From NCBI GenBank assembly GCA_024220525.1, contig JAMYWO010000169.1:44966-78771 (forward strand): a stretch of DNA of 33,806 nt, given 5' to 3'. The position numbers and the translations under genes were made by a program. The stretch is from Cochliopodium minus (taxonomy: Eukaryota; Discosea; Himatismenida; Cochliopodiidae). Positions 3,682 through 33,806 of the stretch are shown here, piece by piece (position 1 is the stretch's first letter; every line of letters begins with the position of its first letter). Below the pieces are notes generated by a model, which searched no databases, was not told where the DNA came from, and saw nothing but the letters and a program-made list of their open reading frames with translations.

Positions 3682-4188
3682 CTGTAACATTTGTATCACT
3701 CATAACAATATTTCCATATTGGTCACTGAAAGAGATTTAAAATTATTCAAAAATAAAAAAATTAATATACAATTTCAATTCATTAATTTTTATTTTATTT
3801 TTATTTTCATTCATTAATTTTTATTTTATTTTCATTCATTTATTTTTATTTTATTTTTGTTTATTAAAATTTATTTATTTGTATTTTATTTTATTTTTAT
3901 ATTTATATTGAAATGATGAATTGGATAGATGTGAAATGAATGTGTTTATGAAAGAAAGTTACAAGAGATGAACTTCAAATTGTTGGTCATCACCAGAAAT
4001 GCCACCATGTAAACCATCACCAGAAGCGGTAGAGTAATTGGAAGAAGCAACAGAAGAAGAAATAGAAATGGAAAAAGGAGATCCCTTTATCCCCTCCCCA
4101 TTCAACAATACCCCTATCTTGTCTCCTTGTGCCACAAAACATTCTATTCTCACCCAATAACTCCCGCTATTTTTTAAAAAAAAAAAAT

Positions 4189-4221
<33 letters not shown>

Positions 4222-7546: not shown

Positions 7547-7591
7547 AAATTGAAACGTTCTCTTTCAAATTTTTTGAAACAATAATTGAAA

Positions 7592-7597
7592 AATAAA
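7592..7597 (+). terminator. Candidate polyadenylation signal of the LIM gene
   Basis: AATAAA 46 bases after the LIM stop codon, inside an A-rich stretch. Such hexamers are common by chance in DNA this AT-rich, so position is the main support. Confidence 0.4.
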
Positions 7598-7793
7598 TAA
7601 TATATAAAAAAAAAAATATTTATTCACTCTTTCTCGAAATTATTGAAACTTTAATGATGTTGAATTTGTTGCCAATTAATATTTTTTTTCTATAAAAGCC
7701 ATCAAAAATATGAACAAATATTTGTTGGCAATTTCTCTCTTTTTTAAAATTTATGCGAAAAAAAAAAAAAAAAAAATTTAAAAGATAAAAAAT

Positions 7794-10700
7794 ATGGAAG
7801 ATATTTTCAATAGAAGAAGAAATGATAACAGATCTTTTTTAAGAGATAGCAGTATTTTTTCTCAAGAACCAAAATATGATCAGGAACAAGAACAAGATCA
7901 AGATTCCTCTTCTGAAGATGAAGATATTAACGATATTTTTTCTCCATCTGATAATCAAGATAACATACAAGAAGAAAAATCAGTAATTCAATTTTTAATA
8001 TGAAATATCCAAAAATATTAACAAAATATCTTTTAGAATTTCAAAGAAGAAATGATTGGTCTCTTGGATGATCATCAAGAATTAATTACAAAAGCAATAA
8101 AACAATGGAATTCTGATCTTTCAAATCTATTTACAATTTCCAAAACTAATTTGCAATCATATATTTTGAAAAATTCTTCATCCCAAAAAAACTTTCAATC
8201 AATTTCAAAAGAAAATCAAATTGCAGAAAAATCTGAAGTAAATTTGGCCAATTTTTAGAAATAACAAGTTAATATTGTTTAATTTTTAGAGAGAAGATAC
8301 AATTGATAATGTACCAATAGTAGTAAGAATGGGAGTATTAACAATGTTTCCATTAATAGAATCACTTGGAGAAATACAAGGATCAAATTATGAGAAATTA
8401 TGTTCTTCAATAATGATAATGTTACAAAATGTACTCCAAGAATTAAAACCTATTGCTCTTTTTACTGAGCCATCTGATTGCATAAACACATTTTTTGATT
8501 GGATAATCACAATGATAGAAAACAAATTTAACTACAAATTAGATTCTCCCTTTAAACTTCAAACTCTTCATACTTTAGTTGCTCTCACCATTTCGAGAGC
8601 TTTTGCTTCTCAAATGGTCAAAACTGCAAATAAACTTTTACTCATTCAAAAAGAAAATGGCTCTCTTTTCAAATTAGATCTGGACTTATCCCCTCTTCTC
8701 GTCCATCTTTTTGAATACCAAAATCAAAAACCTTATCCTTTTTCTCAACTTTCTTTGAAAGGTTTTTTTTTTTCCTAAAAATTTATAATTTTTTTTGTTT
8801 TAAAAAAACTTTAATCTGTTCTTTTTGTTATAATTTTCAAACAAAATTTTCTTAATTACTTTTTCTTTTTACTTTTTTTTTTAAAGAAAAATGGAGTTTA
8901 CAATTATTTCCAACAACAAAGCTGGGAGAGAAAGCAAAAGGAAGTTCAATAGCTAGTGATGGGAACTTTTTGTATCTCATTTATTTCGGTTATCTTTTCA
9001 AAATAGGGACAGGGTTTTCAGAAACAGTGAAAGGGAGGATTTATGTGAAAAAACCTCTTTTCTTTGAAAAAGATGACACGGAATGTTCTCTCATCTACGC
9101 TTCTGGAAAACTTTATTTTTCATCTCTTCATTATCTCAATTTGGAATCAAATGAAAATAAAACAGCCAAACCTTTTAAAGTGGCAGTCGTGGATCCTGTT
9201 TCTCTCAAAATTGAAAATTCTTTCCATCTTCAATATTCCCTTCTTTCTCCTAGTGAAAATGCTTTTATGTTGTCAGATGGTGTTTTCATTTACCTCCTTT
9301 ATCGTAAATCCGAAGAAGATTCTTCCAATAAAGAAGAAGAATTAAAAGAGAAATATCACGAACATTTTTTATTGGACATTTATGATCCTTCTTCTTTGAC
9401 TTCTCCTTCCTCTTCTTTTTCTCCCTTTACTTTTGAAAATAAACAATTTTTCTCCCCTCCTCTTCTTAAATCCATCCAACTCTCTGGTTTAAAAAAAGAA
9501 TCCTCCAAAGATTTTGGTAATTCTCTTTTAAACTATTCCTTATCCATCTTGTTATTTTCAGTATTATTTCAAAATTATTTTAAAATTTAAATTTTATTTT
9601 GATATTTATTTTTTTAAAAATTTCCATTTAAATCAAAATTTTTTTAGAACCTGCATTTTCCTCTTCATCACAATTTGAAAAGAGTTCATTTTACACAAAT
9701 GGAAAATATTTGGTTGCAGTTTTACCTTGCGTTCAAAAAGGAGTACAAAGAGGATTCAAAATGTTCACATTACCAGAGGGTTCTTTTTATTGTGAAATGA
9801 CAAATTCAGTGAATGAAACTTTTCTTTCTTCTTCTTATGACATTCAAAACAATCTCATTTGGTCTTTTGAAGAAAATGACACTGAAATTCAATGTTGGAA
9901 TAACTTGGGAGATCATTGTGGAAGCTTCTCTTCTCCTTCCTCTTCCTCCTCCTCCTCCTCTTCTTCAGTTGTTTCATTGCCATGGTCTCCTCATCCTTTT
10001 TCTTCTCTATTCATCATGAATCTTTTCAATTTTCCTCTCTTTCTTTCTTTTTCTTCTACTTTCTCCTCTGAAAGTAATATAAATAGTATTAACAATAACA
10101 ATAAAAACAAACGTAATCTTAATAATGATAATAATAATAATAATCTTAATAATAATAATAATAATAATGATAATAATAATAATAAAAATAATAATAATAA
10201 TAATAAGAATGACAAGAATAATTATAAAAAAACAACAGAGGGAGAAAAGTATTCACCACTAGAAATAGGATGTATGCTCATTCTGAACATGGATAGAATA
10301 GCAAGCCAACATCCTTTTTATTATGATGTAGCAATCGTAGAAAGTGAAACGGGAGAAGGAGAAGAAGAGATGTTGAAAGAACAATTTTATTTGGAACCTT
10401 CTCTCCTTTTGTTTTCTCAATTATTAGATTTCTTTAATTTAATTCCCTCTTTAATTCCTTCTTCTAATCAATATCTTTACCTCTTTCTTTCTGCTTTACG
10501 TATCATAAAAGTAAATGTTTACCATCTTTTAAAACATACCAAAAAAGAGAAAATTAAAAAAGAAGATTTTCTTTCTTTAAAACTTTTCCTTCTTTCCCTC
10601 CTTTCTTCTCCACAATTATGTGAAGATGAAAAACTGGATCATCAAGTTAAATTGGAAGCTTCACGTGTCCTAGTGACTGGTTCTTTTCTTTTTTTCACCC

Positions 10701-13700
10701 CCTCTCTTCTTTTACTCTCTTTAACTGATTTAATGAAAGAGTTAACTAATGACAAAGATGATTCTTCTTCTCCATTAAACAAGAATGGGAAAAAGATTTT
10801 ATTGGAAATCTATTTCAGAGAACTTTCAAAATGGAATAACATTCAAAATCTTGTTTTAAAGGGTGACGATGGGGAAGATAATGACAACATGGATATTTCC
10901 ATTGAAGAAAAGAAAACAGATGTGATCAATTCTTCATCGGCAGACCCACAATTAAATGTCAATTCCTCTCCTTTCTTTGATTCTCTTCTTCTTTACTCTG
11001 TTAGATATTCTCTCAACAAAATAGAAAAGGAAATTTCGTCAAAAGTGGAAGTAAACAAAGAAGAAGAAGAACAAGCAGATTCTTATTTTCTTTTTTCTCC
11101 TTCTTTGCAACTTTTATTGCATTTACAGAAAAGTCTTTTGGATTTTCCCTACAAAAGCATTTTTCTTTATTACATGGAAAAGTTGTTTCAAGAAAGTTCT
11201 CTTTTTGTAGAAAAGATTTTAACTTTGATCAATTTTGAAATCTCGGAAAACAAGTTGAATCAAATAGGGAAAATTCTTGAAAATTCAGTATTGGGATCTG
11301 TTCTTTCTCAAATTTCTTATTGTTTGGTTTCTAAAAACTATTTTTCTGGAGATTTAGAAATATCTGAAAAAATTCTCCCTTCTCTTCTTTCTCTCAATAA
11401 AAATATTGATAAACTCAACAAAAAGTTTCCACAAATTTCTTTCTACGACTCCAAATACGTGAAGGGAATGTTTTTTGAGAAAAAGAGCACAAAAGAACAG
11501 GTAGTGGAAACAGTACATCCTTACCCAGAAGGTCATTACACTTTTAAGAAGACAATCACGATAAATGGGGCAAGTAACCTTCTTGTTTCATTTGATCAAA
11601 GAAGCAAAACAAATTCTTCTGCAGATTCCTTGAAACTTTTTGAAGATGCTTCTTACGCTTCTGCTTCTGTCATATTGGGAAGTAAAAAACAATCTTCTTT
11701 CAATCTCTCTTCATTTCCTTCGCATCCTATCATTCTTGAAGGAGATTCGGTAACTTTTGTTTTTAAATCATCATCCAGTGGGGGTGTGAATCGTTGGGGA
11801 TTTCGTTGTACAGTTTCAGAATTTGAAGAAAACAAAGAAGGAAGCAACAATGATGTCCAAGAAAAACAACACTGGGTTTTGGAATTGTTAAACTTGTTGA
11901 CTCTCTTATCTTCCAAGTTGTGCGGTTACTTAATCAGAGGAAATCCAATCACTGAAGAAGAAAGAAAAAGCAGTTCATGGATTCAATCGGGCCATTTTAG
12001 TGGAGGATTGGAACAAGGATCTGAACAATATTTTTCTCCTCAAGTTTCAAAATTAAATCTTTCTTCAAAGTTGGAGAGCAAATCCTCTCTTTCTACTCCT
12101 TCTAAATTGGAGAGCAGGTCTTCTCTTTTACCTCCTTCCTCTCCAAATACTGTTCCAACAAGAAAATTTCTTTTGTCGTTGATTTCAAACAAAGCACCTG
12201 CTAATACTCTTTATCAATGGATGAAGTCCAAATTGAAACGTGTTGGTGAACTTCCTCACATAGAAAATGCAGAAAGACATGTGATTGCAGCAATGTTGAA
12301 GCACATGGGTCTCGTTCATGAAGCAATTTCTTTCACAAATCTTCTTTCAACAAACATAAAAGAAGCGGAGAATTCTTTTTCTTGTGAAAAGTTTTTGTCC
12401 ATTCTTCATGAATCTGACAAAGTATTCGTCTCTTTAAGAAAAAGAATACAAACAGAGGGAATGTGGGAAGGATGGGTGAAAAAAGAAGAAGGAAATGAAA
12501 TGTTTAAACTTGGTGATTTGGATCCTGAACAACTCATGTATCTTTGTAAAACACGTGATGTCGAATTTGATTTGATGCAAACAGAAGAAACAATCAAACG
12601 TTTAACTGTAAAACTAGATCAACAGAAAGAAACACCTCATCTTTTCACTCTTTCTCCTCACCAACTTGTTTGTGATCCCATCATTGAAAAAGCTTCTTTC
12701 TTGTTGTGTCTTTTACCTGCCAACAATGTGGTGGAACATCCTACTGCTTTCTCTTCCAACCCCTTCTCCCTTGAAACAACAAGAGATGAAAAAACAGAAA
12801 ATAACAACAACAGTATCAGTAGCAATAATGGTAACAACAACAACAATGACATTGGTGTTGTTAATAAAAATAACAATGTAAAAGATGACACCACTCTTGC
12901 AAATGAAATGGATGAAGAAGAAGATAGCAGTGAAGAATTTAATTTTTCTCGTTCTCAATCTTATTATCCTCAAACCCAAACAACCAAAAATCAAGAAAAC
13001 ATCAAAGAAAAACAACAAGAAAAATCAAAAGAACTTACACGCAGAGTAAAAGAGTTTAGACAATGGATTGGTGCTTACGGAAGTTGGAAAAACTGGGCAG
13101 AAGGAAATATCCTCGAAAATGTGAGAAGAAAACAACAGAAAATACCAAAATCTCCTCTTGCTGCTGTCACCATTTTTGTTCAAAGTGACTTTTCTGTTGA
13201 AGATTTACAAAAAACTTTAAAAGTTCATGATCAAAGAGCAAGAATAAGAAACATTGGTATCTCTTCTCTTTTTGAGCTCTTAAAAAACATTTCTTTTGCT
13301 TCTTCAAGGGAAATTGTCTTGTTTTCAATGAAAAACACTTTGGCTCTCAAAAGTGAACATTACTTGTCCAACGTTCAAGTGTGCACCAGAGATCTCAAAA
13401 ATTTGTTGATTAATTCTTTTTCTAATCTTTTTGAATGTACCATTTCCATTTTGAAAGATGTCAACACGGATACCATTTCAAGATTGTATTCTCTTCAAAT
13501 CTTGAATCTTTCTTTTCAAGATTTTGATGCATCTTTGCTTTTAAAGACAAACATTTTCTCCATTCTCCAACAAATAATCCATCAAAAAGATTCTTCTTTC
13601 AAAAATTCTAAATCTCTTCTTTCTTCATCTTCCACCACCCCCATCAAAATGAGACAAGAAAAAGATGACATGGAAATTGATGAAATTTCTTCCAAAAAAG

Positions 13701-16700
13701 AAAACAAAGAACAACAAAACATAGAAAATGCAGATTTGACACAACTTTTGAGAGATGGAGCATGGATCGCATTCAGAGTGATTTCCTTTGTTTGTTTGAA
13801 TTGGGAAAAGGAACAAGTGATCATTTACAAAAGTGATGTAGAAAAGTTGTATTCTAAACTTTATGAAAACCTTGTTTCTGAAATAGAATTTCTTTCCAAT
13901 TTATTTTCTCTTCACAAACCTGTCTCTGAGGAGAATATCAACTATTGCTTTGAAGTATTGTCCACCACCTATTTGTTAACCACCATAGAAGGACAAGAAA
14001 AACAACTCATTAAACTTCTTTCTTCCCAAAAGATAGTGGATCAGTTGTTCATCATTTTGAAATCTGATCACAGTTCTCCTAAATCAAAGAGAATCATCCT
14101 TCGTTTGTTGAGAAAGTTGTTACCAAACTTGCAAGAAGAGATTCTTTCTTATGTTAAAGTTTTACTCAATGAAATCGGAAAATGGCTTCTTTTCGGAACA
14201 GAAGTAGAAGAAAATAAAGAAGACAACGTCACTTCTCTCCCTCGTGCCAACTCTTCTCTCCCTTCTTCTCAAGATCAAAACAAAGAAAATACAAAAATAG
14301 AAGAAGTAAAAGAAGAAAAAAGAGAAGATATGAAGATTTCAGAAGAAGGGGGAGAAGAGGAGGAAAATTTTTCATTTGAAAGTGAAGAAGTTTCTCAATT
14401 AAACAAACCCAACATTGTTGAAAAAGTAGATGAAAGTTTTGATTACTCTCTTTACATCCATCTCTCTTCCAGCATGCATCGTGTATTTGAAGAGTGTGAA
14501 AAACGTCAGCCAGGTATTTTCTCTTTGAAAAGAAATCCAATGGAATACGATCTTAAACAAGCAACCTTGGAATTAAAAAAGAATGGCAAAGTTTTGATCA
14601 AAAGTGGAACATTAGAAGAATGTGAAAAGTTGGCATCTTATCTTTGTCTCAGTGCTGCCACCATTTCAATTAACCCTCAAAAACCAAATAATGAACCTTC
14701 TCTTCTTTCCCAAACTTCTCCTTCCAATTTTAAAGAACAATCAAAGAATTGGACAGATGGACATAGTGCAATGTCTATTTGCTCTGAATACATTTCATTG
14801 TTTCGTTATCTTTCTACTCTTCCTTCTTTAAAACCTCTAAAAAAACCTTCTCTTTCTTCTTTCTCTTTGTCTTCTTCCTTCTCCGGTAAAACAGAAATAG
14901 AAGAAGTTAAATTGAATGTTTTCTCTCATTTGTGGAGTGAGGGAATAACCAATGTTTTGACAAACACCATCCTCTCTCTTCCTTCCTCTCTACAAAACTC
15001 CTCCCTTCCTATTTCTTCATTAAGAGAAATGATTGCAAGTTTGGCAGTGTGCGGAGGATTCAATGAATTTTTAAGGATAGGAGGTAAAGTGGAAGTGGAT
15101 GATCTTTCAGATCTTTCTTCTTCTTCCATCTACTCTGATAAATCTATCAATGAAAAAGTGAAAGAAAAAGAGGAGAAAAAAGAGAATAAAAAGAAAGGAT
15201 ACATTATAGACTATCATCCTTCTCTTCCTTCTTCTTCTCTTTTCCTCTTTTCTGATTCCACTCATTCTCCTTTAAATCTTTCCAATCAACTCATTCATCC
15301 TGTTCCAGAAATAGAAGCAACACCTAATCTTTTAAACATTTCTGTGGAAATTTTCAAATCAATTTTGTTAGTGTTGCATCCAAACTTTTCTTTTCCTTCC
15401 CTTTCTTCCATCTATAAATTTGATTTTCGTTCAAGAATTCTCAAAACTCTCAACACCATTCTTAAAGATCCTTCCAATTCTCTTTTGTTTCTCAGCAATT
15501 TTTCCAAAGATTGTGTTCCTCTTTTGATTGATATGGTAAAAAAAAAATTAATAAATCAAATATATTCCTTATTATTCAAAATGTATTTCTTATTATTCAA
15601 ATATATTCCTCATTATTCAAATATATTTCTTTTTATTTCAAAATTATTTTTTTAAATTTTATTAAAGGCTACATCATGTAAACCAACATCTTCTGTAAAA
15701 GTGTTGGAAGAAGAAGTGATAGAAATGGGGACAAAGCTGTGGGATCTTTCAAAACCATCTCTCAACACGTCTATTCCTGGCTTGGATAATTATTATGAAA
15801 ACTTACTTCCTCATTTTCCAAAGGAGTTTCTTTGTTTTGGTCTTCCAACTTATTTAAGTACTACTGGAAAATTACCAGGTTAATTAATTTTACTATTAAA
15901 TTTTAATTGATAATTTTTTTTTTAAAAAAATATCCGAAATGATTAAAATATACTAAAATTTTTCTTTTAGGTATTCTGTTTAGAGGAGCAGAACCAAGAA
16001 CGGCAGAGTTTAATGTTATAAAGAGATCAAACAGAGATCTAATACCCAAAGAAATAGAAGTTTTGATTTCTTCTCAAGTACCCATCCCTCTTCAATCTAA
16101 GAAGTACTATTTTGAAGTTTTTATTGAAAAAGGAGACATTAAAGGCAACAGAATAAGTATTGGTATTAATCCTCAACAAAGTTTGACTTGGCTCGAAAAA
16201 TCTTTTAGGTAATTTCTACCTCCTTCTTTATTTAATAATTTTTTTTTTTAATTTACTCTCTTAATTAATTTTAATTTATTTTTTTTTGTAATTTATTTTT
16301 TTCAATTTTTTTTTTAATAACTTTAGATTCCAAGCAGATGGACAAATAACAACAGTATCTGCTGGGAAATTGTTGAGAAAAGATTATGGTAGCTTCTATG
16401 GAATCAACTCTGTCATAGGTTGTCTTTTGAACAGAGAAGACAACAGCATTTCTTTCACCAAAGATGGTAAACTTGTTTTTCTTTTCACCAAAAGTAAATT
16501 ATTTTTTTTTTTTAAAAAAAAAACAAAAAAAATATTAAAGGAGTATTATTTGATGTGGCATATGAAGGTTTATCAACAGAAGTAATGTACTATCCAACAA
16601 TAGGATTAGGAAATGGAGTAAAAGTGAGAGTAAATTTTGGACAAGAAGAGTTTATCTACAATCCTTCCATTTCTCTTTCTCTCAAACACGAACAGAAGAA

Positions 16701-19700
16701 TGAGGAACAAAAACTTTTAGAGAAAAAAAAGTTGGAAGAACAAAGAAAAATAGAAGAAGAAAAGAAAAAATTGGAAAAACAAAAATTAAAAGAGAAAAAA
16801 CAAGTAATGATCAATACTCTCTTGGAATTTGACATGGGGTTTTCTGTTGAACAAATCAGAAGGGCTCTTCATGAAACACGTTTTCCAAAAGATCCTCAAA
16901 TCGCCATAAACTGGATTTTCGATAACCCCAATGCTGAGCCTCTTCCCGACAGTGATGAAGAAGAAAAGAAAAAAGAAAAGGAAGAAAAAGAAAAGAAAGA
17001 AAAAGAAGAGAAAGAAAATGAAAAATTGAAAAAAGAAGAAAATGAAAAAGTTGATAAAGAAGAAAAAGAAAAAGAATCTTCTGATCCTCTTCTTTCCTAT
17101 CTTCCTTCTTTTAACAAAGACTTGTGGGACTTTGATTGCTTTAGTTTTAAAGGATCTGAAGCTGAAAGCCAAGGAGATCAACCCAACAATGTACAAAAAA
17201 CTTTTTGGGAAGAAAAGTAAAAAAAGTTTTTTTTATAATTTTTAAAAAATAGAATAAAAAATAAAATAAAAAAATTCTTTTTTATTTTAGGGTGATACCA
17301 CATGTTCTCAAATTTATGCAACAACAAAAATACATGCCTCTTGAAATGGAAGATTCGATAGAAAAAATTAGAATAGCTTTGAATGAAGGAAACGAAGTTG
17401 CAGCAAAAGAAATAGTAACAACAATTTTGGGAGAAGAATTCAGATTGCCAAGAGTAGCAGAGGAGAAATATCTTTCTTCTAAACCTTCTTTTACTTCTCC
17501 TCTTTCAAGTAAAGATGTTAAAGTGGGTTTACATGTTTATTTGTCTCCCAACTTTTCCAACATTGTTGCTCCTTCTCCTTCCTCCTCTCTTTCCTCTTCT
17601 TCTCTCTCTTCTCTTTCCCTTTCTCTTTCTCAACCAATAAAAATAACACAAGAAAAAAGAAGAGGGAAAGAAGTGAAACATTTGAAGGGAGTTTTGGGGA
17701 AAATAGTGTCAATAGATTATATTTCTGAGAGAGCTTTAGTTGAATTTTATGAAAGTGAAAGAGGTGTTCTTGAAGGATGGTGGTTTCATTTTCATTCTTT
17801 GATTCTTTCTCCTTATCAATCTCCTAACAATAACAACAACAACAGCACCATCAACAATGAAAATGAGAAAAACTCTCAGATTTCTTCTCTCCAACAAAAA
17901 CTTTCTCAAACAAAACAAGAATTGTCTCATTTGTATGCTCGTGAATCCATTCTTCACTTGTTATTGAACACTTCTCTTTCTGTGGATGAAGCTTCTCCTT
18001 TCAACTTTAAAAAGATGTTGAATATTTTATCTCAACAAAATTTGAGTTGCCATTCTTTTGAATCCACCTATTTGCTTTCTTCCATGTCTCTTTCTGAACA
18101 AAAGTTGATGGATCTTTATCTTTCTCTCCCTACTCAAATTTCAAAAACAAATTTTTCTAATCTTTTGGTGAATGAATGTACCAATCTCTTCAAAAAATCT
18201 TCCAACTTTGTTTGTGATAAATCTTTATTCATCAAATCAGAAGTTTCACAAATAGAAAAAGAAAGAAAGATAGAAATACCTGGTTCCAAAACATTGTTGA
18301 TCACTTTCCACAAAGATTCATTCATTCCTCCTCAACAAAATGCAACAATAACTTTTTTCAAACAACAAAACTCTTCGGATCCAATCAAAGTGATAGAAAC
18401 AAGTGGAAAAAACTTGTTGCCATTTGTAATCAGCCAAGATCATTTTTACATTTCTGTTAAATCTCCTCCAAAAAATAATGTAAAATATTCTTTTTCTGTT
18501 ACTCCTGCTCATCCTGATCTCTCCCTTGCTATTTGGTTGACTCAATTTTTACTTTATCATCCTGTTCTACCTGTTAAACCAAAACTCTCTCTTTTGTTCA
18601 ACAGTATCCTTCAATGTTGCTTTTCAATGAAATATTTATCTGGTAACTCCTCTCTTTTTTTTTTTTTTAACATTTCTTCTTTTTTATTTTTAAAAACATT
18701 TCATTTTTGTAAAATAAAATTATTTTAATCTTTATCTCTTTTAAATTAGCCCAAAAAGAAGCAATATTGAATCTTCTTTCTCAACTGATGAAAACATACA
18801 CATTAGGAGTGGAAGAAGAAAAGAAAGAAATGAGTGAAATAAAAGAAAAAGAAGAAGAAATGGACACAAGCGAAGACAATAACGAAGAAGCTCTTCTCTC
18901 AATAGAAAAATTAGAAGAAGAAGTGGAAAACTTGTATCAATCTGAAAAATCAAAAGCAAACTTTTTCCACAGCGTATATTTCCAAACACTTGCAGAGTTT
19001 ATTGTTTGGTACTACATCTACAAAGAAAAACTTTCCCCTTCTGAAGTAAAAGTAGAAGAACAGTTGAGTAGTGGAAGTATGGACCTGGGTATTTCTATCG
19101 AACTCGTCAAAGCTATGCTTGGTAAAACAAAGGTAGAGGAGCCTCCTAAAGAAGAAAAAAAAGATGAGAAAGAAATTAAAGGAGAAGAAAAATCAGAACC
19201 TTTACAACTTTTAGAAGAAGAAAAGAAAGAGGAGAAACAAGTAGAAGAAAAGAAAGAGGAAAAACAAATAGAGGAAAAGAAAGAGGAAAAGGAGGAAGAA
19301 AAAAAAGAGATTTTCATTCCTTTTGAACCAAAAAAAGAAGAAGAACACTATTCTGATGAAAACCAAGGAGATGAGGACATTGACTTTGAAGATGAACAAT
19401 TAAGACAAGCCATTTTGCTTTCTCAAATGGAAGATGAGAATCATGTTGTTGTTGTTGTCGATAATCAAAAGAATCCTCCAAAAAATGAACAAAAAGAGAT
19501 TCCTCCTCAAAAAGAAGTTTTTTCTTCTCCAAGAAAAGAACAAAAAGAAGAGCTTCCAATACAAAAAGAATCTCCTCCTCAACAAAAAGAACTTCCTAAA
19601 CAAAAAGAAGAAAAATCTCCTCTCATCATCGAGAAAAAAGTGAAGAAATCACCCACTCTGAATAAAGAGAAAAAAGAAGAAAACAAACTTTCTGAATCCT

Positions 19701-22542
19701 TTTTGAAAAGTCTTCCTAAAAAAATGGTACAAAACAAAAAGCAATTATGGATGAATCAGTTGATAGAAACATCTTATCTTCTCGAATGTATAGTGCATCC
19801 CCAACAATACAAAAACATTCTAATCAAAAACTTGAAATCTTTTTGGCAAATAAAAAATGAAAGTATTTTGGAGAGAATGGTGATTGTTCAAAATATTCCC
19901 AAACTTTCTCTTCAAAAACAAAACAACATAAAACAAACTCTTTGCAAAAGTTTGAGGAGATTTACAAATTTGGAAGAATCAAACATCTTTTTACCTCTCA
20001 ACGAAAATGAAAAAACAAACTTTCCTTTCTGCATCATTACTCTACCTAATCCTTCTCTTCTTCCTACTGTCATCTCTAAACTTGAATCTGCGAAAATAAA
20101 AACGAAAAGAGTTTCAAAGACATTAAAAGTGGGGAGAGTGGATCAAGCTTTTTTCATTGACAACTTGTCTTCTCTTCAAGAAAGAAACAGTGACACCAAA
20201 ACTCTCCTTTATTTATTTTTGCAATCCAAATTGGTTTCCTCAACAAACAAACATTCCCTTTCTGTAAGTTCTTCTTTTGCAAAAGCTCTTCTTTCTCTTT
20301 TTCTTCAATTTACAGGGAAAACCATTTCAAAGAAAAATCTCCTTTCTTTTCCAAATCAATACTTTATCTCCAAAAAACAATTTGATTCTCTTTACTTTCA
20401 CGCAAACAATACTCATCTCAAAGAAGAAGAGATTAATCACATTTTCTCCAAACACAAAAACAAAGAAAACAACTTTAAAACAGAAGATCTTTCCTTATTT
20501 ACTGAAGAACCTTTTCAAAAAGAAACAATTTTGGATCAACTCCACTCTAAAACTGGAAAAGAAGAGGAGTCACTCAGTTTTGTTGATTTCGTTTTTTATT
20601 TTGATGATTGTGCAAAGGAGAATCCTCTTGAAACATGGAGACTTCTTTCCAAATTGGGATTTGATTACAATGTGGATCAAAGTTGTTTCAATGATCTCGA
20701 AGATGCTTATCAATCTCTCCTTTTGTTTTCTCCAAAGAAAGGGAGAAGAATCTACGATGAACACATTATCTCTTATGCTCAAGAAATTTCTAATCAATAC
20801 GGCTATTCTTTATCTAATCTTCCTCTTGATTTACTTTTCCCTCTTTCTTCTCAGTACACATCTCAATACAAACTTTTGTTGGACTTGACTATTCCTGCTT
20901 TGAGACTCAGATTTTCTCTCATAAAACATTTCAACTCTTGTTTAGAAAAAGTGTTACCTCTCATCAACATGTATTCCTCTTTTGATGGTAGCATTTCTGA
21001 TTTACTTTCTAAATCTCGAGACTTGATCTTTCTTTCTGTAAAAACAAACTTTTCTTTGATTGTTTTCGACAAAACATCTACAAGTGGAAATCAACCAACA
21101 GTAGTGATTGAAAGATTAAATCTTTTGGCAGGAAAAAATGATTCTCAATCAAACAAATCAAACAATGAAAACAAAGATGATCTCCTCAATAACACTTCTT
21201 TTGGTCTTGCTATGCAACAATTATCCAAATCAAACGATTCTGTACTTAGACAAAAGAAACCTCCTGGTAAACTAATTTTTTTTTTTAAACTTTTTCTTTT
21301 TTTTTTATTCCAAATTCATTCCAAATTTTTATTCATTTTAATTTTTTTTTTTCATTTCAAATTTACATTTTGTTTTTAGGAACCGAACCACACTTTTCAT
21401 TTGTGATAGAATTTAAAGGGGAGAATGTAGAGGGACAAGGTGGACCATATCGCCAATTTTACTCGGATGTATCAAGAGAATTAAAGGATAGACTACCTTT
21501 GTTGATTCCTTGCCCCAATGCTCAGATACAAAATGGAGATAACAGAGACAAATTTATCATTTCCCCTTCTGCCACTTCTTCTCAAGACTTGAACATGTTT
21601 GAATTTTTCGGTAAATTGATTGGTATTTCGATGAGAACTGGTGTTTTGTTGACTCTTGATCTTCCTTCCTTCTTTTGGAAATCTCTTGGTAATAAAAAAA
21701 AAACAATTTTTTTAAAAAAAATAATAAACATTTTAAAAAAAAAACGAAATTTTTTAGTTGGAGTAGAAGTTACAGAAAAGAATTTGCAAGAAATAGATAT
21801 CTTCTCAAAAACAACTTATTCACCTAATGTAGATGAGAATGAATGGGAAGAAACACCAAGATATTGGGGAGTTGTTTTATCTGATAAAACAAAAGTAGAA
21901 TTAGTAGAGAATGGATTCGATAAATTAGTTTCTTTTGAAGACAGAAAAAAATATTGTGAATTAGCACTAAAAACTAGATTGAAAGAAAGTGAAAAACAAA
22001 TGAAATACATCTTGAAAGGTTTTCACAGCATAGTTCCTTCCAATTTGATGAACATGTGGACATGGAAAGATATTCAAATGAGAGTTTGTGGTTCTCCTTT
22101 TATAGATGTTCAACTCCTAAAGAGACACACAAAGTATTCTGGTCTTTCTAGCAAGTCTCCTGTTGTAGAATGGTTTTGGAATACCCTTTCTGAAATGAAT
22201 CAAGAACAATTGAGAAGATTCATAAGATTTTCTTGGGCACAAGAAAGACTTCCAACTGATGATGAAGATTTCAAAAGAAATGGAACAAGAATGTTAATCA
22301 AATCTTATGTCAGTAATTCTCCTCCTGATCAAGTTTTTCCAAAGGCTGATACTTGTTTCTTCAATCTCATCCTCCCTAATTACTCTTCTCAAAAAGTTTT
22401 GAAAGAAAAATTATTGACAAGTATTTACATTGATATCGATAGCATGGACAGTGATGTTCAAGAAGATCAAGAAGAAGAAAACTTGGGACTTGGAAGAAGA
22501 TCTAATCTTTTTGGAGGATTTAATTTGAACAACAATTTTTAA
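7794..22542 (+). CDS. Giant HECTD4-like HECT E3 ubiquitin ligase (4,535 residues)
   Basis: Thirteen exons: 7794-7982, 8037-8237, 8290-8761, 8887-9516, 9648-15535, 15668-15878, 15971-16208, 16327-16466, 16541-17216, 17291-18642, 18750-21266, 21380-21688 and 21758-22542. They sum to 13,608 nt and every junction keeps frame. Modules in order: SDGNFLYL and GTGFSETVKGRIY in the N-terminal part; a CUB-like segment at about 1117-1222 (HPYPEGHY to WGFRCTV); SPRY at about 2532-2690; UBA-like helix bundle at about 2745-2786 (MGFSVEQIRRALHE, AINWIFDNP); UIM near 3547 (DEQLRQAILLSQME); HECT from about 4172 (EGQGGPYRQFY) with PKADTCFFNL, the catalytic Cys at about 4474. The order resembles animal HECTD4. 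An acidic 62-residue tail follows the Cys. Asn-, Ser- and Glu/Lys-rich spacers separate modules. It should transfer ubiquitin from E2 to bound substrates; substrates unknown. Confidence 0.9.
10081..10232 (+). repeat. Asparagine-coding AAT/AAC repeat inside the HECT ligase gene
   Basis: A near-perfect run of AAT and related codons encodes mostly Asn with scattered Asp, Lys and Leu. It interrupts the N-terminal third of the ligase. Just upstream (about 9935-9970) a TCC/TCT run encodes poly-Ser. Confidence 0.85.
19145..19345 (+). repeat. Glu/Lys-rich repeat (EEKKEEKQ type) in the HECT ligase gene
   Basis: Repeats of GAAGAAAAGAAAGAGG-like units encode EEKKEEKQ-type peptides just before the UIM. 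This is probably a charged single helix or flexible linker. A similar Lys/Glu-rich stretch flanks the UBA-like segment at about 16690-17080. Confidence 0.75.
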
Positions 22543-26257: not shown

Positions 26258-26629
26258 TCAAATTTGTTTCAATCTGTACTTGTAATTACGTCTTTTATTT
26301 TTCATGAATAGTTTAAAAGCACAAAACCATCCATGTTCACCCTCAATGGTATTTTTCCAAAGCCTCATCAAATTTTTCTCTTGATTTATATAAGCCAAAT
26401 TCTTTTAAAAGAACAAAAATAAAGTTGAAATGTTTCATTTTGAATTTATTACCATAATTGATTGATCATCTGCCACAAGGTCTAATGCATAAAAAATTTC
26501 CACAGTTTCATGATGAATTTTCCAAAAATCTAACATTGATTCTTTCTTTCCAAAAAAAAAACCTCCTTGAATTTTTGATCTTTCAATTACACTAACAACA
26601 AAATCGTCCAAGTCTTGTTTTCTAGGTCT
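26258..26629 (-). CDS. HtrL/YibB-family gene, C-terminal part (cut by N at 26630)
   Basis: Two exon segments, 26629-26453 and 26401-26258, encode the end of a YibB-family protein: IQGGFFFGKKESMLDFW, LVADDQSIM, NLMRLWKNTI and GWFCAFKLF, ending in TGA. The 5' part is absent because the sequence stops at the N. Bases 26553-26629 equal window bases 1-77 exactly, and joining there restores copy 1 with correct frame and exon length. I therefore read this as the missing end of copy 1, not a third gene. If instead it is a separate copy, it is a truncated, very recent duplicate. It lies 118 bp upstream of the TatD-like gene on the same strand. Confidence 0.8.
26553..26629. repeat. 77-bp exact direct repeat of window bases 1-77
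   Basis: Identity spans all 77 bases, from nine A residues through to TAGGTCT at the N. The same region in the divergent paralogue (from 1353) differs at many sites. The repeat runs to the very end of both pieces, as overlapping contig ends do. Confidence 0.9.
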
Positions 26630-26630: not shown

Positions 26631-26830
26631 AATTACAACTTTGTTAGCGGATAATAATTAATAACTAACAAATTTTGAACTGTTGTAAAGTTTTGGACAT
26701 CTCCAATAAAAATTAAAATTGAAATAAATGTAAAAAAAAAATAAAATAGTTTAAACATGAAAAAATGCAAAAAATATAAAAAAAAATGAAAAAATGTTTT
26801 TAAAATGTTTTTTAAATTTTTTTTTTTTAC

Positions 26831-27505
26831 AAATCTAGCCACAGAACCTTTCTTTCCGGCATCAATAAATTCACCACCACCCAAAGTGAGGATGTAAAAA
26901 TGTTTTTTGTTGGAGGGAAGTTCCAATCTACGAACACATTCTTCAGAATTGATCACCTCACCAATATACTCTATGATAAACTCTCCTTCTTTAATGTTTT
27001 GTTTAGTGATTACTCCAAACCCTTTTTTTTCTGTTTTCACAACTTTTAATTTTTTCCACAATTTGTTGCAAAACCTTTGATTTCTGCAATACTTTCCTAC
27101 TGGACATGTGTTTGGACATTCCATTGATTGCAATCTGTTGACGCAATTATCATCTCCACATTCCGATATTCCTTTTATATAAAAACAATGACATTCTTGT
27201 ACTTTCTCTTGATTCTTTTTTCTGTATAAAATTTCATCTTTTTTTCAGTAAAAAAAGAAAAACAGTTTTTTTTTTTGAAACAATTAATTTTGAATCTTTT
27301 ACTATCAGTCATTTCCTTCCATCCCTCCAAATATTCTTTATCATCCTCTAATATATATTTAATTAATTGTTTATTTTTCTTGATTTTTAAATTTTATAAT
27401 CAAACCTGATTCTTCATTTTCGAATCTTTTTTTTACACTCAATATATTTGCATTTTGTTCAATTTCTTGGATTGATTCAACCTCATTCAACAAGATTTTC
27501 TTCAT
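26831..27505 (-). CDS. AWS-SET histone-lysine methyltransferase, C-terminus missing
   Basis: Three exons: 27505-27406, 27347-27282 and 27237-26831, all in frame, about 191 residues. After roughly 60 N-terminal residues comes an AWS zinc region (ECHC, ECGDDNCVNRLQSMECPNTC, GKYCRNQRFC). The first half of a SET domain follows: KGFGVITKQNIKEGEFIIEY, IGEVINSEEC, YILTLGGGEFIDAGKKGSVARF. This combination is typical of the SETD2/ASH1/NSD group that methylates histone H3 lysine 36 (family knowledge). The next exon should carry the NHSCxPN motif and the catalytic tyrosine. None is found in the 200 bases before the N at 26630, so the gene is cut by the assembly or is broken. The compact N-terminus lacks the extra domains of animal relatives. 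Confidence 0.82.
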
Positions 27506-27644
27506 TTTTTTTTTTATTTTTTTCTAAATTTTTAATTTTTTCATAATTGGGAAAATATTTGAATTTCCAGAAAAAAACAAGGAGATAGAAGATTAAAAGC
27601 TTTTTTTAATACATAAATTTCTCATTTTTTTGGATTTTCTATTA

Positions 27645-28486
27645 TTAATTTGATACCAAAGCAACCTTTTTATTAGTTTGTTTGGTTTGAGTTGTTGTTT
27701 TCTCAACTTTAGGAACATCATGCTGTGGGACATTGGGTAAATCTTGAGTATTTTCAAGGTCCTCTTCTTCAATTAATTTGTTTAATTCATTTTCAATTTC
27801 TTCATCCTCTTCTTCATTGAATTTTCCTGTCAATAATTCTTCCAATTCCTAAATCATATATTATAAAAAGGGAGGTTGTTGACGAATTCAAATAAAAATA
27901 AGCTATATATAATGTGGTATTTCAGAATTATTTTTACTCTCGCTTTTTGTAAAGCCTCTTCGTTTTCCAACATCAATTGTTCAACATCTTCAATTTTCAT
28001 CATGTCATTTAATTCTTCTAAAGCATTTTTACCTTGTTTCATTGCTTCTATAACTTGTAATTCTTGAACTTTCCAATCAACAGTCTGAATCATTTGGTCC
28101 AAATTAAATATTTGATTTTCCACCTTTTCTAATTGTGTTTCTTGTAATTTCTTTTTCTTAAGAGCCAATAATGCTCCCTTTTTATCTCCCTTTTTCTTCA
28201 ATTCTTTTGCTATTTCCACTTCTCTTGCTATTGTGGTTTCACACTAATGTATTTTTGATGTTGTAATTATTTGTTATAATATTCTTAAAATTGGTTCAAA
28301 AAAAAATAACCTTTTTCTTTATTCTCTTCAAATTATTTTGTGCATTTTTCATGTCAAGAATTACTTGATCTTGTTGGGTCACTTTATTGTTCTTATTTTC
28401 TTTTGATCTAAATAATAATTGATTATAGGATGTGTTTTCTGTTTAAATACATACCCATTCTTGTTCTTTGAAAATAGAAAACCCAT
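27645..28486 (-). CDS. VPS20: ESCRT-III subunit Vps20/CHMP6
   Basis: Four exons: 28486-28455, 28407-28311, 28243-27938 and 27848-27645; 639 nt, 212 residues, close to human CHMP6 (201). The start MGFLFSKNKNG has Gly2, fitting N-myristoylation as in CHMP6. The Snf7 core follows: VTQQDQVILDMKNAQNNLKR, KKGDKKGALLALKKKK, LEKVENQIFNLDQMIQTVD, then the acidic C-terminal segment LEELLTGKFNEEEDEEIENEL. Vps20 is recruited by ESCRT-II on endosomes and starts Snf7 filament growth for vesicle budding and receptor sorting. The gene sits head-to-tail between the VTT and SET genes with 111 and 139 bp gaps. Confidence 0.92.
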
Positions 28487-28597
28487 TTGATAGAAAAAAT
28501 TAGATATTTGCTCAATTTTTTTTTTTTTTTTTTTTTTGAAATGGATTAAAAACAAACCTTTTTGGGATTTGAACAAGTATTTGACAAATTATTTTAA

Positions 28598-30465
28598 TTA
28601 ATTATTAATTTCTTCTTTAACACTTTTGTTCTTCTCTTCTATAATTTCATTTTCTATTTGATTGAGATGATTTTCAAGATTTGAAATTGTGGTTATTTCT
28701 TTTATTTGTAGAGAATCATTTGGAGATAAGTCTTCGAGTTCGATGGGGATAGGATTTTCAGAATCCAAATTTGGATCCATCAAATGATGCTGAAAATCAG
28801 GCATATTTAAGGTATCTTTTATGATCTTTCTTCCTGCTATGAATAGTATCACAAAAATTACAAAAAAAAAGCATATTTCCAAAAGAAATGTTATCTTTTT
28901 TGTCTTTGTCCATTTGTTTTCCCCTTTTATTTTGAATTTTGAAAAATAATTTAAATTTGTACAGAAATTCACAAACCTGAAACAGCACTTGCAAGAGATT
29001 CCATAGTAGATCCTAGCGTTAACGAAAGAGAAAATTATTTCAAAAAAGTTTTTCTATTTAAAAATATACCAGCCACAACCCCAACAAGCACCTGTTAAAG
29101 TAGTTTTTTCAAAAAAAAATGAATAAAAAAATAAATAATAAATTAAAAAACAAAAGCGAACAGTTGGTATCATCCCAAAAAAGGTAGTAACAACAAATCT
29201 GTTTTTTTTTTTTTTTTTGAATTAAATATAACAAAATAATTGAAATAAAAGGTACGGAAGAAACTCAATTTTAGTGACAGAAAGAAAAGCATTAACCATT
29301 CCTTTTAATTATTATTTTTTACTTCAAAAATGAAATTTATTGAAAAAAAAAGAATACCAAAAGGGAGAGGAGAAAGGCGAATTAGAAAACATATTTTCCA
29401 TGATTCTTTTTTTTTTTTTTTTTAAAAAAAGAAATGAAAAAAAGCTGTTTAAAAATTTTTTTTTTTTTTTTTACCAGATCTGAGTCTAATATCAAGCTAA
29501 ATTTTTAAAACAAAAGTTCTTAAAATTTTCTTCTTATATTTATTTTTCTTTTCATATTAATTGTTTTGATATTAATTTTTTTTTTGTATTATTTCAATAT
29601 TATTTATTTTTGTGTTCAGTTTATATGAATTTGTTCATCTTATTTATTTTTACATTCATTTTAAAAAAGAATTACTTTTTTGAAAAAAGGGTTTTGGTCG
29701 ATTTTTTGTTTCACTGTTTTACGAAGAAAATATCTACAAACTAAAAATTTTATTTTGTAAAAAAAATAAAAACTAAAAGAAAAAAAGGATCACTTGTAAA
29801 GCAAAAAATGGCTCCAATGGTCCCTTTAATTTTGTTTTGAAATTTATTTAAAATTTAAAGAGATAAAGAATTTACCAGAAATAACCTAATTTTCAAATAT
29901 TAAATTAGTTAAAAAAAAAAACAAATTATTTTTGACTAAATTATTTAAAACTCAAATTAAAAGTTTTCATTTTTCTTTAATGTCGGCATGAATATTGAAT
30001 AAGTTTGGATTGATGAAATTCTATTTAAATTTAGAAAAGAATTACAACAAGAGGTAATCCAAGAAATAATCCAAATAAGAATCCAGCTGTCATTTCAAAA
30101 ATTGAAAAGAAAAGGATAACAGGAAGAGAAGATAAAATGATGCAAATAGCGATTATGATAGATGGCAAAAAGGTTCCCAAATTAGATATCCAATTTATAA
30201 ACCTCAAAATAATCCCTTTTTTCCACAAAATGGCAATAGTGGTGAATAATACCAATAATAAAATTAAGAGAATTATTAATTTCATTTTATTTTCTTTTGC
30301 ATATTCAATCGATTCATTCCAACACTTTTTATATGAGGGTAAATTTTTTTCTTCAATTTCTTGTTGATCTTGGTGGATTTGTTCATTTGGATTTGAATGT
30401 ATTTCCAATAATTCATTTTCTTTGTCTTTTTTATCAATATTTTCTGTATTATTATCAAACTCCAT
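28598..30465 (-). CDS. VTT-domain membrane protein, TMEM64-like, eleven exons with micro-exons
   Basis: Exons 30465-30046, 29885-29876 (10 nt), 29823-29794 (30 nt), 29740-29676, 29496-29475 (22 nt), 29405-29358, 29301-29256, 29198-29162, 29091-29070 (22 nt), 29012-28977 and 28923-28598 sum to 1,062 nt, 353 residues, with frame kept throughout. The joined protein shows the VTT/DedA pattern: hydrophobic helices, MTAGFLFGLFLGLPLV, VISGTIGAIFCFTICR, FLIRLSPLPFGMVNAF, TKIEFLPFVVTTFFGMIPT and VAGSTMESLASAVSG, then a final transmembrane helix. Order and spacing are closest to TMEM64. VTT proteins (TMEM41B, VMP1, TVP38, DedA) act in ER/Golgi membranes, several as lipid scramblases; that function here is inferred. 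The soluble N-terminus (about 65 residues) is Asn/Glu-rich. A longer in-frame start at 30606 exists but looks like leader sequence. Confidence 0.88.
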
Positions 30466-30648
30466 TTCAAATAAATCAAAATAGGAGTATTCCAATAAAT
30501 AAATAAATAATTTTTTTCCTTTTTTTTTATTTATTTCAATTTTTTTTTTCAATTTAATTAATATACAAACAGAAAAAAGTTCCGACAAATAAATTTGTTT
30601 GTGCAAAAAAGTAGGAACTTTTTGGGTTTATGAAATATTAACTTTAAT

Positions 30649-32994
30649 TTATTCAGCACATTTTCGAATATGATCATCAATTTCTTTTACAGATAAATTT
30701 TCAAAAGAAAAATCACACAAAGGACAAATTAAAGGTTTTTCATTGTTAGGATTATTTTCAGGTTCAAATTCCTCTATTTCTTCCAAATTTTCTTCTTTCT
30801 TTTCATTTTTGTTTTTGTCAATCTTATTGTTAAAATTACTGTTGAGAGGTTTGTTCGTGTTGATGTTGTTTTTGTTAAAAATTAATTTATTTTCATTTTT
30901 TTTATTTAAATTGAATTTAAAATTATTATTTATAGTATTGTTGATACTATTATTTACACCGAGACTATTATTCATTTTTTTAAATCCATTGTTATCATTT
31001 ATTGGGTTATTGTTATTATTTACTTTGATGTTGATATTTTTGTTAGTATTGCTATTATTGTTTGTAGAGTTTTGAGGAATGATAGGTTTGGGATTGTTGA
31101 AGGAGCTCTTATTGGAAGGATTAACAAGCGAAGTGATTTTATTACCAGAGCTATTGTTTTTAAAGTTATGATTATTGTTATTATTAGTCTTGTTTGAGTT
31201 ATTAATATTATTACTATTATTAATATTGTTATTATTATTAGTCTTGTTTGAGTTATTATTATTATTATTATTATTAATATTGTTATTATTAATATTGTTA
31301 TTATTAATATTGTTATTATTATTAGTCTTGTTTGAGTTATTAATATTATTACTATTATTATTATTAATATTGTTATTATTATTAGTGTTGTTTGAGTTAT
31401 TATTATTATTATTAATATTGTTGAAGATTTTATTACCAGAGCTCTTGTTTAAGTTACTATTAAAGTTATTATTTGTCTTGTTATTATTGTTAAAGTTATT
31501 ATTTGTCTTGTTAATATTATTATTATTACTATTATTAATACTATTATTATTACTATTATTGAAGAATATATCAGCAGAGCTATTGTTGTTAAAGTTTTTA
31601 TTATCAGAAATATTTTTAGTAATAGAGTTAATAATATAATCATTTTTATTATTAAGTTTATTTAAATTATTGTTTGAAATATTTTTGTTAGAAACAGTAT
31701 CACTATCATTTTTACTTTCAATAATATTTTTAATATTTTTAATAGAATTGATTTTATTGAGAGAATTGTTATTATTAATGAGAGGAGAGTTATTGAGGGA
31801 AGTTTTAAAAGAAGATGTATTTTTGAGAGAGTTTTCTATATTTTTTTGAGTATAATTATTAATGTTATTATTTTTTTGATTGTTATTATTCTGATTGCTA
31901 TTACTCTTATTGTTATTACTCTTATTATTAATTTCATCATTTTCATTATTATTATTAATGTTATCTTTAATCCGATTATTATTATTAAGAAGTGGTTTAT
32001 GATTATTAGGAGGGGTTTTATTGTTGTTAGTATTTTTGTTTAAAAAAAGAGAATTAACAGCGCTTTTAGCATTAAAGTTATTTTTATTATTATTTACATT
32101 ATTATTAATATTTATATTATTATGATTATTTATATTATTATTATTATTATTATGATTATTATTTATATTATTATTATTATTGTTATTATTATTATTATTA
32201 TTATTAATATTTTTATCATTATTTATATTGTCATTGTTATTATTATTATTTATATGATTATTATTGTTATTATTAATATTATTATTTATATTAATATTAA
32301 TATCATTGTTATTGTTGGAATTGCTATTACTAGAGATTAAATTATTTGTTGCAATTATGTTAATATTATTTTTATTGTTATTTATTTCTCTATCGTTATT
32401 TGTTTCTTTTTTATTATTTATTTCTTTATTATTTGTTTCTTTATTGTTAATATTCATTTCTTTACTTTTATTATTTATTTCTTTTTTATTTTTATTTATG
32501 TCTTCCTTATTTTTGTTTTTAATGTCACTAATGTCATTATTAATAAAATTATTATTGTTATTACTATTCTCAACTTCATTGTTATTGTTTTTGTGGCTGG
32601 GGATGACACTTGTATTACTTTTGGTTTTATTGATGTGATTTTTAGTGATAAGAAGATGGGTAGACTTTTCCTTGTTTTTGTTCAAGGGAGGGGGAGATGG
32701 TTTTTTTTGGTTAAAATTTAATTTTGGTAAATAATTCTCGTTTATTTCCTTTATCTCTTTTTCTTTGAGGGAAGAATCATTATCATTAGAATTATTATTA
32801 TTTTCTTGAAGGAAAATGTTTTGGGTTGAAAATTTTTGTTCAATTTGTATCAATAATTTTGTTAAATCTTCAAAATTATCTTTTTTGGGAAAATATTCAG
32901 GGAAAAAATATATTGTGTCCTTTTGAATATCTGTATTTTTCATTTTCTTATTTTTATCAAAATAAAGAAGGTTTTCTTTTCTTTTTTTATCCAT
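30649..32994 (-). CDS. Asparagine-rich protein with a C-terminal UBZ-like zinc finger
   Basis: One uninterrupted frame gives 781 residues. More than half is Asn, in runs mixed with Lys, Ser, Ile and Thr, so most of the chain is low complexity. The N-terminal 65 residues are ordinary (YFFPEYFPKKDNFEDLTKLL) and may hold a short helix. The last 25 residues hold CPLCDFSFENL and IDDHIRKC. Ligands C757, C760, H775 and C779 match the C2HC ubiquitin-binding zinc finger (UBZ) spacing of Rad18/TAX1BP1-type proteins. Ubiquitin binding is a reasonable inference but not shown. Neighbours are the VTT gene (183 bp downstream) and a filamin/TM gene (87 bp upstream), same strand. Confidence 0.75.
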   Translation of the reverse strand: MDKKRKENLLYFDKNKKMKNTDIQKDTIYFFPEYFPKKDNFEDLTKLLIQIEQKFSTQNIFLQENNNNSNDNDSSLKEKEIKEINENYLPKLNFNQKKPSPPPLNKNKEKSTHLLITKNHINKTKSNTSVIPSHKNNNNEVENSNNNNNFINNDISDIKNKNKEDINKNKKEINNKSKEMNINNKETNNKEINNKKETNNDREINNNKNNINIIATNNLISSNSNSNNNNDINININNNINNNNNNHINNNNNNDNINNDKNINNNNNNNNNNNNNINNNHNNNNNNINNHNNININNNVNNNKNNFNAKSAVNSLFLNKNTNNNKTPPNNHKPLLNNNNRIKDNINNNNENDEINNKSNNNKSNSNQNNNNQKNNNINNYTQKNIENSLKNTSSFKTSLNNSPLINNNNSLNKINSIKNIKNIIESKNDSDTVSNKNISNNNLNKLNNKNDYIINSITKNISDNKNFNNNSSADIFFNNSNNNSINNSNNNNINKTNNNFNNNNKTNNNFNSNLNKSSGNKIFNNINNNNNNSNNTNNNNNINNNNSNNINNSNKTNNNNNINNNNINNNNINNNNNNNNSNKTNNNNNINNSNNINNSNKTNNNNNHNFKNNSSGNKITSLVNPSNKSSFNNPKPIIPQNSTNNNSNTNKNINIKVNNNNNPINDNNGFKKMNNSLGVNNSINNTINNNFKFNLNKKNENKLIFNKNNINTNKPLNSNFNNKIDKNKNEKKEENLEEIEEFEPENNPNNEKPLICPLCDFSFENLSVKEIDDHIRKCAE
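31175..31420 (-). repeat. Higher-order repeat coding SNKTNNNNN units in the Asn-rich gene
   Basis: On the plus strand the block TTAGTCTTGTTTGAGTTATT recurs near 31182, 31237, 31321 and, with one change, 31381, separated by TTA-type triplets. On the coding strand this gives NNSNKTNNNN peptides. A second pair (TTATTACCAGAGCT near 31140 and 31431) encodes SSGNKI twice. Confidence 0.85.
32095..32215 (-). repeat. Dense TTA/AAT triplet repeat coding polyasparagine
   Basis: Nearly pure ATT/TTA triplets on the plus strand, AAT on the coding strand, give the longest Asn runs of the UBZ protein, broken by His and Ile. Confidence 0.8.
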
Positions 32995-33081
32995 TAATCG
33001 TTTTTTCTTTTCAATTTTTTTTTTTAATTTTTTGACAAAATATTATAAAATTAAATTTAAATTGGTAAAGAGAAAAGTTTT

Positions 33082-33664
33082 TCAGAGAGTGGTATATCTT
33101 TGCCTTTGTCTTCTTATTACAATGATAATGAAAGCAATGATTGCAATAACCCCAACACATGCGGCAATTATAACAATTATGTATCTTTTAAAAAAATTTA
33201 AATATAAAATAAAATGTTATACAAAAAGGCATTTTACGGCAAAGTGAATCTGAATCCAGGAACCTCAACTTTTTAAAAAAAAAAATTAATTTGATTTATT
33301 TTGAAAAAAAGGGAAGAATGGAAGAAATTACCTTCCCAAGGAAAACCGGGGATGGGGAGAGTATTAATGGAGGCATCAATAGAATATTTTCCAGTTTTGT
33401 AAGGAACCCAAACAACGTTGTAAGTACCATTTTGAAAATTGGAAATGATGGCTTCCACATTATTGTTACTTCCCGTGTTATTGTTATTGTTGACATATTT
33501 TCCACTGAGATAAGTAATGTTTACAAAATAATCCAATTGTGAAGCGATTACATTTCCAAAACGATCATAAAAAGTGACCTGAAATTGGTTTATTTCATCT
33601 TTTGTTGAGTTTGTTGTTTTCCCAGTTATCACTGATTTTGTTGCGTCCACACTTGAATGATCCA
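33082..33664 (-). CDS. Filamin-type repeat, transmembrane helix and short basic tail (5' part outside)
   Basis: Three exons: 33664-33332, 33268-33238 and 33184-33082, ending in TGA. The first encodes one filamin-type immunoglobulin repeat: QFQVTFYDRFGNVIAS, SNFQNGTYNVVWVPYKTGKY and LPIPGFPWE. After a short linker (VEVPGFRFTLP) comes one long hydrophobic helix, IIVIIAACVGVIAIIAFIII, then a short tail RRQRQRYTTL. This is the C-terminus of a type I surface protein with extracellular filamin-like domains; the upstream exons are not found before the window end. It could be the missing end of the lectin-filamin gene at 3682-6250, since both run on the minus strand and each lacks the half that the other has, but no shared sequence proves it. 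Confidence 0.75.
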
Positions 33665-33806
33665 CTATGTTTTTTTATTTTTTAGATTGTTAAATTAATC
33701 AAAAGTTTTTAAAAAATAAAATAAAATTAAATTAACAAAATAAAAACTGAAAGTTATAACTAAAAAATAAAATATAATTAATAAAAGTTAACTAAAAAAT
33801 AAAATA
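33665..33806. other. AT-rich end of window, no feature seen
   Basis: These 142 bases are almost pure A/T and follow the splice acceptor of the filamin exon, so they are probably intron. I see no coding sequence. Confidence 0.5.

Follow-up and report, generated by a model that had tools for sequence, protein, structure and literature searches.

Adjacent contigs in de Bruijn assemblies overlap by k bases, and k = 77 is a usual setting of SPAdes. The DNA described here resembles such assemblies in the constant 77 bases shared at sequence edges, in forks at which two sequences start with the same 77-mer, and in the tandem arrays at the edges sampled here, none of which exceeds 77 bases; it differs in that the 77 could stem from another program. 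In the scrambled genes of ciliate germlines the DNA is continuous and the pointer repeats within it are short and differ in length. Programmed scrambling of this kind is rejected here, as the non-array overlaps that were read all have 77 bases and sit at edges next to N or at scaffold ends. Misordering of linked contigs has also been published, and as far as those accounts describe it the present case is alike in that true neighbours are linked and their order is wrong, but differs in that the reversal looks systematic and keeps the strand, rather than being a local misplacement. In the part of the Meraculous description that deals with gaps, overlapping contigs give negative gaps (PMC3158087); here too the flanking contigs overlap despite a scaffold gap, although the overlap sits at the ends opposite to those joined by N. 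A search of the literature on contig overlaps, gaps and contig order gave, among the titles listed, no description of the assembly itself.

The window, that is the whole stretch of DNA analysed, comprises 33,806 nt of Cochliopodium minus (GCA_024220525.1, contig JAMYWO010000169.1 positions 44,966-78,771, forward strand), corresponding to C169:44966-78771 in a genome of 44.65 Mb and 598 contigs. It prints three pieces, A, B and C, separated by single Ns (Table 1). The whole of C169 consists of piece 0 (1-10150), piece 1 (10152-31199), piece 2 (31201-32352), a run of 12,613 N, and then A, B and C. Window base 1 (C169:44966) directly follows this N run (C169 32353-44965) and is thus the edge of a piece; nothing seen to its left contradicts a join to B. 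The original prediction held that the pieces stand in the wrong order, that the last 77 bases of B equal the first 77 of A with both copies stopping at the edge of their piece, and that placing B before A joins two half genes. The identity is indeed exact and each copy does end at its piece's edge, the second copy starting one base into a run of ten A (26552-26561). It is the only terminal overlap of at least 12 bases among the three pieces in all orientations, and for this particular 77-mer the rounded base composition of the window gives a probability near 10^-43. The placement of B before A appears well supported by the sequence; the scope of the prediction was too narrow, as the pieces of the scaffold seem to be reversed throughout. 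What we see is very probably an assembly artefact in which the pieces are listed in reverse order with their strands kept, and not biology.

Table 1. Pieces, overlaps, gene exons and repeats in the window (positions of the window unless a contig is named).
Feature	Position	Strand	Remarks
Piece A (piece 3 of C169)	1-3563		12,613 N before A
Shared 77-mer, first copy	1-77		A's left edge
YibB copy 1 exon 3, 5' part, on A	1-159	-	
YibB copy 1 exon 2	217-486	-	270 nt
YibB copy 1 exon 1	556-938	-	383 nt
YibB copy 2 exon 4	1044-1193	-	
YibB copy 2 exon 3	1253-1511	-	259 nt
YibB copy 2 exon 2	1569-1838	-	
YibB copy 2 exon 1	1943-2358	-	
Penicillin-amidase-like gene, N-terminal exons, cut at A's right edge	2798-3532	+	PF01804
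Single N, printed A/B join	3564		
Piece B (piece 4 of C169)	3565-26629		
Filamin-repeat exons, cut at B's left edge	3635-4336	-	PF00630 on 3962-4336
YibB copy 1 exon 4, including stop codon	26258-26401	-	
YibB copy 1 exon 3, 3' part, on B	26453-26629	-	100 nt + shared 77
Shared 77-mer, second copy	26553-26629		B's right edge
Single N, printed B/C join	26630		
Piece C (piece 5 of C169)	26631-33806		right end = scaffold end
Dispersed repeat holding C's left edge	26631-26703		456 first-look candidates, best 40 scored
AWS and SET domains, cut at C's left edge	26636-27244	-	SET positions 1-73 of 105
Filamin repeat at C's right edge	33276-33674	-	PF00630 positions 2-92, 41.5 bits
Places sharing 77 bases with other sampled edges	C17:241576, C1:130854, C184:3744, C578:1, C169:10152, C53:184792		

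The gene restored by placing B before A is YibB copy 1. Joined over the 77 bases, its third exon becomes 100 + 159 = 259 nt, the same as in copy 2, and with introns placed by hand at GT-AG boundaries the four exons encode a protein of 351 residues; exon length, exon number and protein length are all as had been proposed from inspection of the letters. Copy 2 encodes 364 residues, and the two proteins are identical in 226 of 365 aligned columns. The half on A matches PF09612 (HtrL_YibB) at positions 3-168 (51.3 bits) and the half on B at positions 189-266 (32.0 bits), and the joined product matches positions 3-266 of 267 with 78.8 bits, against a curated cut-off of 24.1. Since the joined score does not exceed the sum of the halves, what matters is that the two matches complement each other, not that the score gains. 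Nor is the 259-nt exon proof by itself, because the shared 77 bases would also align the halves of two different, closely related copies. The pattern of edges elsewhere in the genome and the absence of a third YibB copy among the matches of the genome search are stronger evidence than the exon length, and with them the reading of YibB copy 1 as one gene cut in two is supported.

The edge pattern was examined in a sample of 91 edges (80 scaffold ends, nine piece edges of C169 and two N-flanking edges in C118), of which 14 read N and were left out, leaving 77. Perfect tandem arrays of at least 40 bases occur at 28 of these 77 lettered edges, the longest being of 77 bases; away from an edge, just one array of at least 50 bases is present in 68,660 bases examined. 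An earlier query of concatenated edges was crowded by repeats (best 40 of 307 candidates scored). From it five repetitive edges were removed and three edges added, A's left edge included, giving a set of 18 edges, picked by eye as non-repetitive, that were searched together. Among the best 40 of 54 candidates scored, an exact 77-base partner was found for six of the 18 edges, A included, and not found for the other 12. For the five edges besides A we read six partner places (Table 1), chosen because the match starts at an edge, with inexact matches (72-97%) left aside. All six matches are of exactly 77 bases, and all six lie at a piece edge that adjoins N or a scaffold end. One of the six is the overlap of piece 2 into piece 1 inside C169, and two are forks that share their initial 77 bases and then diverge: C595 and C184 start with one 77-mer, and C213 and C53 with another. 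Edge overlaps are also seen between scaffolds (C592 with C17, C508 with C1). Within the 18-edge search, eight are left ends from C201-C213 and C403-C418, and for none of these does the scaffold itself hold a partner of 77 bases, a null result that says little, since two such overlaps per 13 joins would lead one to expect about one among those eight, if they belong to multi-piece scaffolds. The constant of 77 is thus directly observed, in keeping with the earlier suggestion that it is a k-mer overlap, and a k-mer graph assembler would be its source. The right end of C595 starts with what we take to be Illumina adapter sequence, which fits short reads.

A consistent direction is seen in C169. 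The scaffold has two 77-base overlaps, from piece 4 (B) into piece 3 (A) and from piece 2 into piece 1, and both run opposite to the printed order. An open frame of 333 residues runs uninterrupted through the second of these and adjoins RIO1 exons on piece 1 (PF01163); it may be the tail of the RIO1 gene, although Pfam gives no match for the stretch on piece 2. MMS19_N (PF14500) lies at the right of piece 1 and MMS19_C (PF12460) at piece 0's left, both on the + strand, and the latter is the only place that a genome search with PF12460 matches; the split of this gene in reverse order points to a join from piece 1 into piece 0. The relationship between C and B is less exact. B's left edge cuts through a filamin-type gene, whose PF00630 match on 3962-4336 scores 21.8 bits, below the cut-off of 26.9, and a further filamin exon with the motif DQYGN is recognised by eye at about 3635-3736. 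The filamin repeat at C's right edge may, more weakly, continue this gene, and as part of one repeat is missing between the two edges, C and B do not abut exactly. Reverse order is thus supported at four of the five joins of C169 (2 into 1, 4 into 3, 1 into 0 and 5 into 4), with the 2/3 join providing no evidence.

At the printed joins the picture is different. The original prediction noted that B was offered two right-hand neighbours, A by the overlap and C by a bare N, which cannot both be right, and we see no real continuity across either printed join. The amidase-like exons at A's right edge match positions 2-39 and 32-64 of the 675 of PF01804, and in a genome search with this model (8 matches) no continuation is found on B; the matches outside A are in C118, C568 and C588, with no clear continuation there. 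At the printed B/C join the cut SET gene of C faces YibB on B, as judged from the list of open reading frames at B's right edge. A DNA search from C's left edge, which lies inside a dispersed repeat, did not find a left neighbour. With the C169 pieces in reverse order, however, both single Ns probably join true neighbours at the wrong ends.

Overlaps were then tallied (terminal overlap of at least 40 bases) at 13 internal joins of C169, C118 and C211, the three of the 598 scaffolds that were examined end to end. Printed neighbours overlap at 0 of the 13 joins and reversed neighbours at five, with lengths of 77, 77, 68, 61 and 43 bases. In the controls, overlaps are present in one of 46 other same-strand pairs of the same scaffold, in 0 of 176 opposite-strand pairs and in five of 504 pairs from different scaffolds. 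The overlaps of 68, 61 and 43 bases are the weaker ones, being low-complexity arrays whose units match other pieces too, and in each of the three both unit and strand agree. The reversal of C211 is suggested by one such array. At six of the 13 joins neither order has evidence in its favour (C169 2/3; C118 0/1, 1/2 and 2/3; C211 1/2 and 2/3).

Genes that continue on the reversed neighbour are also found in C118, with exons picked and spliced by eye. An alpha/beta hydrolase matches PF07859 positions 1-29 at the right of piece 4 (24.1 bits) and positions 77-206 at the left of piece 3 (83.4 bits); joined, it scores 105.1 bits, with no gain over the sum of the halves, and positions 30-76 of the model were not found. 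The same array unit stands at both edges of this join. An RCC1-like gene may span the join from piece 5 into piece 4, scoring 31.7 bits joined versus 29.8, with the piece 5 half giving no match alone. Continuation is clear for YibB, MMS19 and the hydrolase, and less so for filamin, the 333-residue frame and RCC1. Pfam scans were confined to chosen edge frames that had been filtered by composition. Ten further edge frames contained glycosyltransferase 61, SAM, AAA and F-box domains, none of which pairs, and five or more had no Pfam domain. As a wider check for split genes, 76 myosin head matches included no split inside a scaffold in either order; by eye, the list holds three partial loci (C84, C79 and C496) whose other half is never on the same scaffold.

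In the mechanism that we propose, the assembler would have built a k-mer graph from short reads, leaving adjoining contigs with 77 bases in common, contig B running into A within exon 3 of a single YibB gene. The break between B and A might have arisen at a branching k-mer, and as a guess we point to nine versus ten A residues in the A run within which the overlap begins. The scaffolder would then have recognised the true neighbours and written one N for each non-positive gap; the linking itself seems to have succeeded, since it is true, overlapping neighbours that the single Ns mark. At output the list of pieces would have been reversed without a change of strand or, equivalently, the pieces flipped with the list order kept; put right, the scaffold would run C, B, A, the long gap, 2, 1, 0. 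An error in writing the scaffolds would be the simplest cause of this mismatch between list direction and strand, and we regard it as the probable one.

If this is so, the half YibB, half SET and half amidase genes of the window need no biological story, and the split genes and surrounding gene order would be products of scaffold writing. Studies of synteny, gene loss, gene models or the number of tandem genes that relied on the assembly would go astray at the joins. We lean, by a little, towards the view that every multi-piece scaffold of the 44.65-Mb assembly has its piece order reversed while the pieces themselves are sound. Were that true genome-wide, all long-range gene order and all genes that span joins would be wrong as written, and a mechanical reordering of the pieces could put this right. 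Comparing the terminal bases of pieces is a cheap test that can be applied to any short-read assembly.

The same reversed order might instead have been produced by misreading the orientation of a mate-pair library, with outward pairs taken as inward, which we consider possible though rather unlikely. Such a misreading would turn the order, keep the strand and yield gaps of strongly negative size, each printed as a single N, and the long gap of C169 does lie between its two shortest pieces (1,152 and 3,563 bases). It should also make gap size fall with the length of the neighbours, however, and this is not seen in C118, whose gaps are in order 178, 1,664, 1, 1 and 1 N: 178 N stand between pieces of 16,206 and 30,512 bases, 1,664 N between those of 30,512 and 2,441, and one N between those of 2,441 and 41,507. 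Some N runs may not be assembly gaps, so that gap sizes are weak evidence and the argument is confounded for both causes.

A more local error, in which A and B alone have changed places and all other pieces of the scaffold are correctly ordered, would account for the overlap of B into A and for the YibB join. It is very unlikely, as the overlap of piece 2 into piece 1, the split MMS19 gene, the filamin edges and the two other scaffolds are all reversed too.

Extremely unlikely in our judgement is a reading in which the printed order is right and a third YibB copy stands at the end of B, the 77 bases being common to it and copy 1 by chance or conversion and both sequences having been cut at a repeated k-mer. 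A branching 77-mer does also create such edges, and the forks described above exist. The copies moreover share close tracts: A's first 300 bases are 91% identical to copy 2, and identity per 50 bases peaks at 1.0 near 258-307 and is lower on either side, a tract that could reflect gene conversion between the YibB copies. Against this, identity to copy 2 across the junction is 0.80, 0.88, 0.76 and 0.88 per 50 bases, with no step. No third copy appears in a protein search of the genome, all eight matches of which are exons of copies 1 and 2, as are all three matches of a second genome search, although the smallest scaffold seen is 10,038 bases long (the last-numbered contig), so that short scaffolds are probably missing from the set and a YibB copy on one of them could have been missed. 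Two lost half genes would also be required, and the other reversed joins would be left over. Gene conversion between YibB copies is likewise rejected as the reason why the 77 bases are identical. A circular molecule or a tandem array of a 26.5-kb A+B unit would let B run into A and the scaffold print A before B with both being true, yet it is so improbable as to be nearly negligible, as the amidase-like gene is cut at A's right edge without a match on B, the gene interrupted at B's left edge is a filamin gene on the opposite strand, and such a unit does not account for the reversal seen in other pieces and scaffolds.

Among various other features of the window and the assembly, we note that the two YibB genes form a tandem pair of HtrL_YibB family members in a eukaryote, whereas Pfam describes the family as bacterial. 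The dispersed repeat at C's left edge belongs to an element of about 80 bases with inverted ends recognised by eye (TGTCCAAAATTTACAAC...GTTGTAAAATTTTGGACA), which is present also at the left end of C583 and the right end of C487, and which in C adjoins the SET domain, perhaps in its intron. It looks like a very small MITE, as judged from these letters; an automated repeat search did not report its inverted ends, and Rfam gave no match for three scaffold-end sequences, two of them with the inverted ends. The ends of C584 (11,047 bases), at 1-120 and 10928-11047, look like near-identical inverted copies, much as in a mobile element with terminal inverted repeats. Of 60 scaffold left ends sampled, 14 start with N, C118:1-12209 is likewise N, and contig numbers do not follow length order, as if stretches had been removed after numbering. 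On the - strand of C, a 797-residue open frame rich in asparagine runs (30649-33042) ends in a CPLC...H...C motif. On the + strand of B, one or more very long genes (8290-22542) are represented by frames of 2007, 487 and 888 residues, the end of which looks HECT-like.
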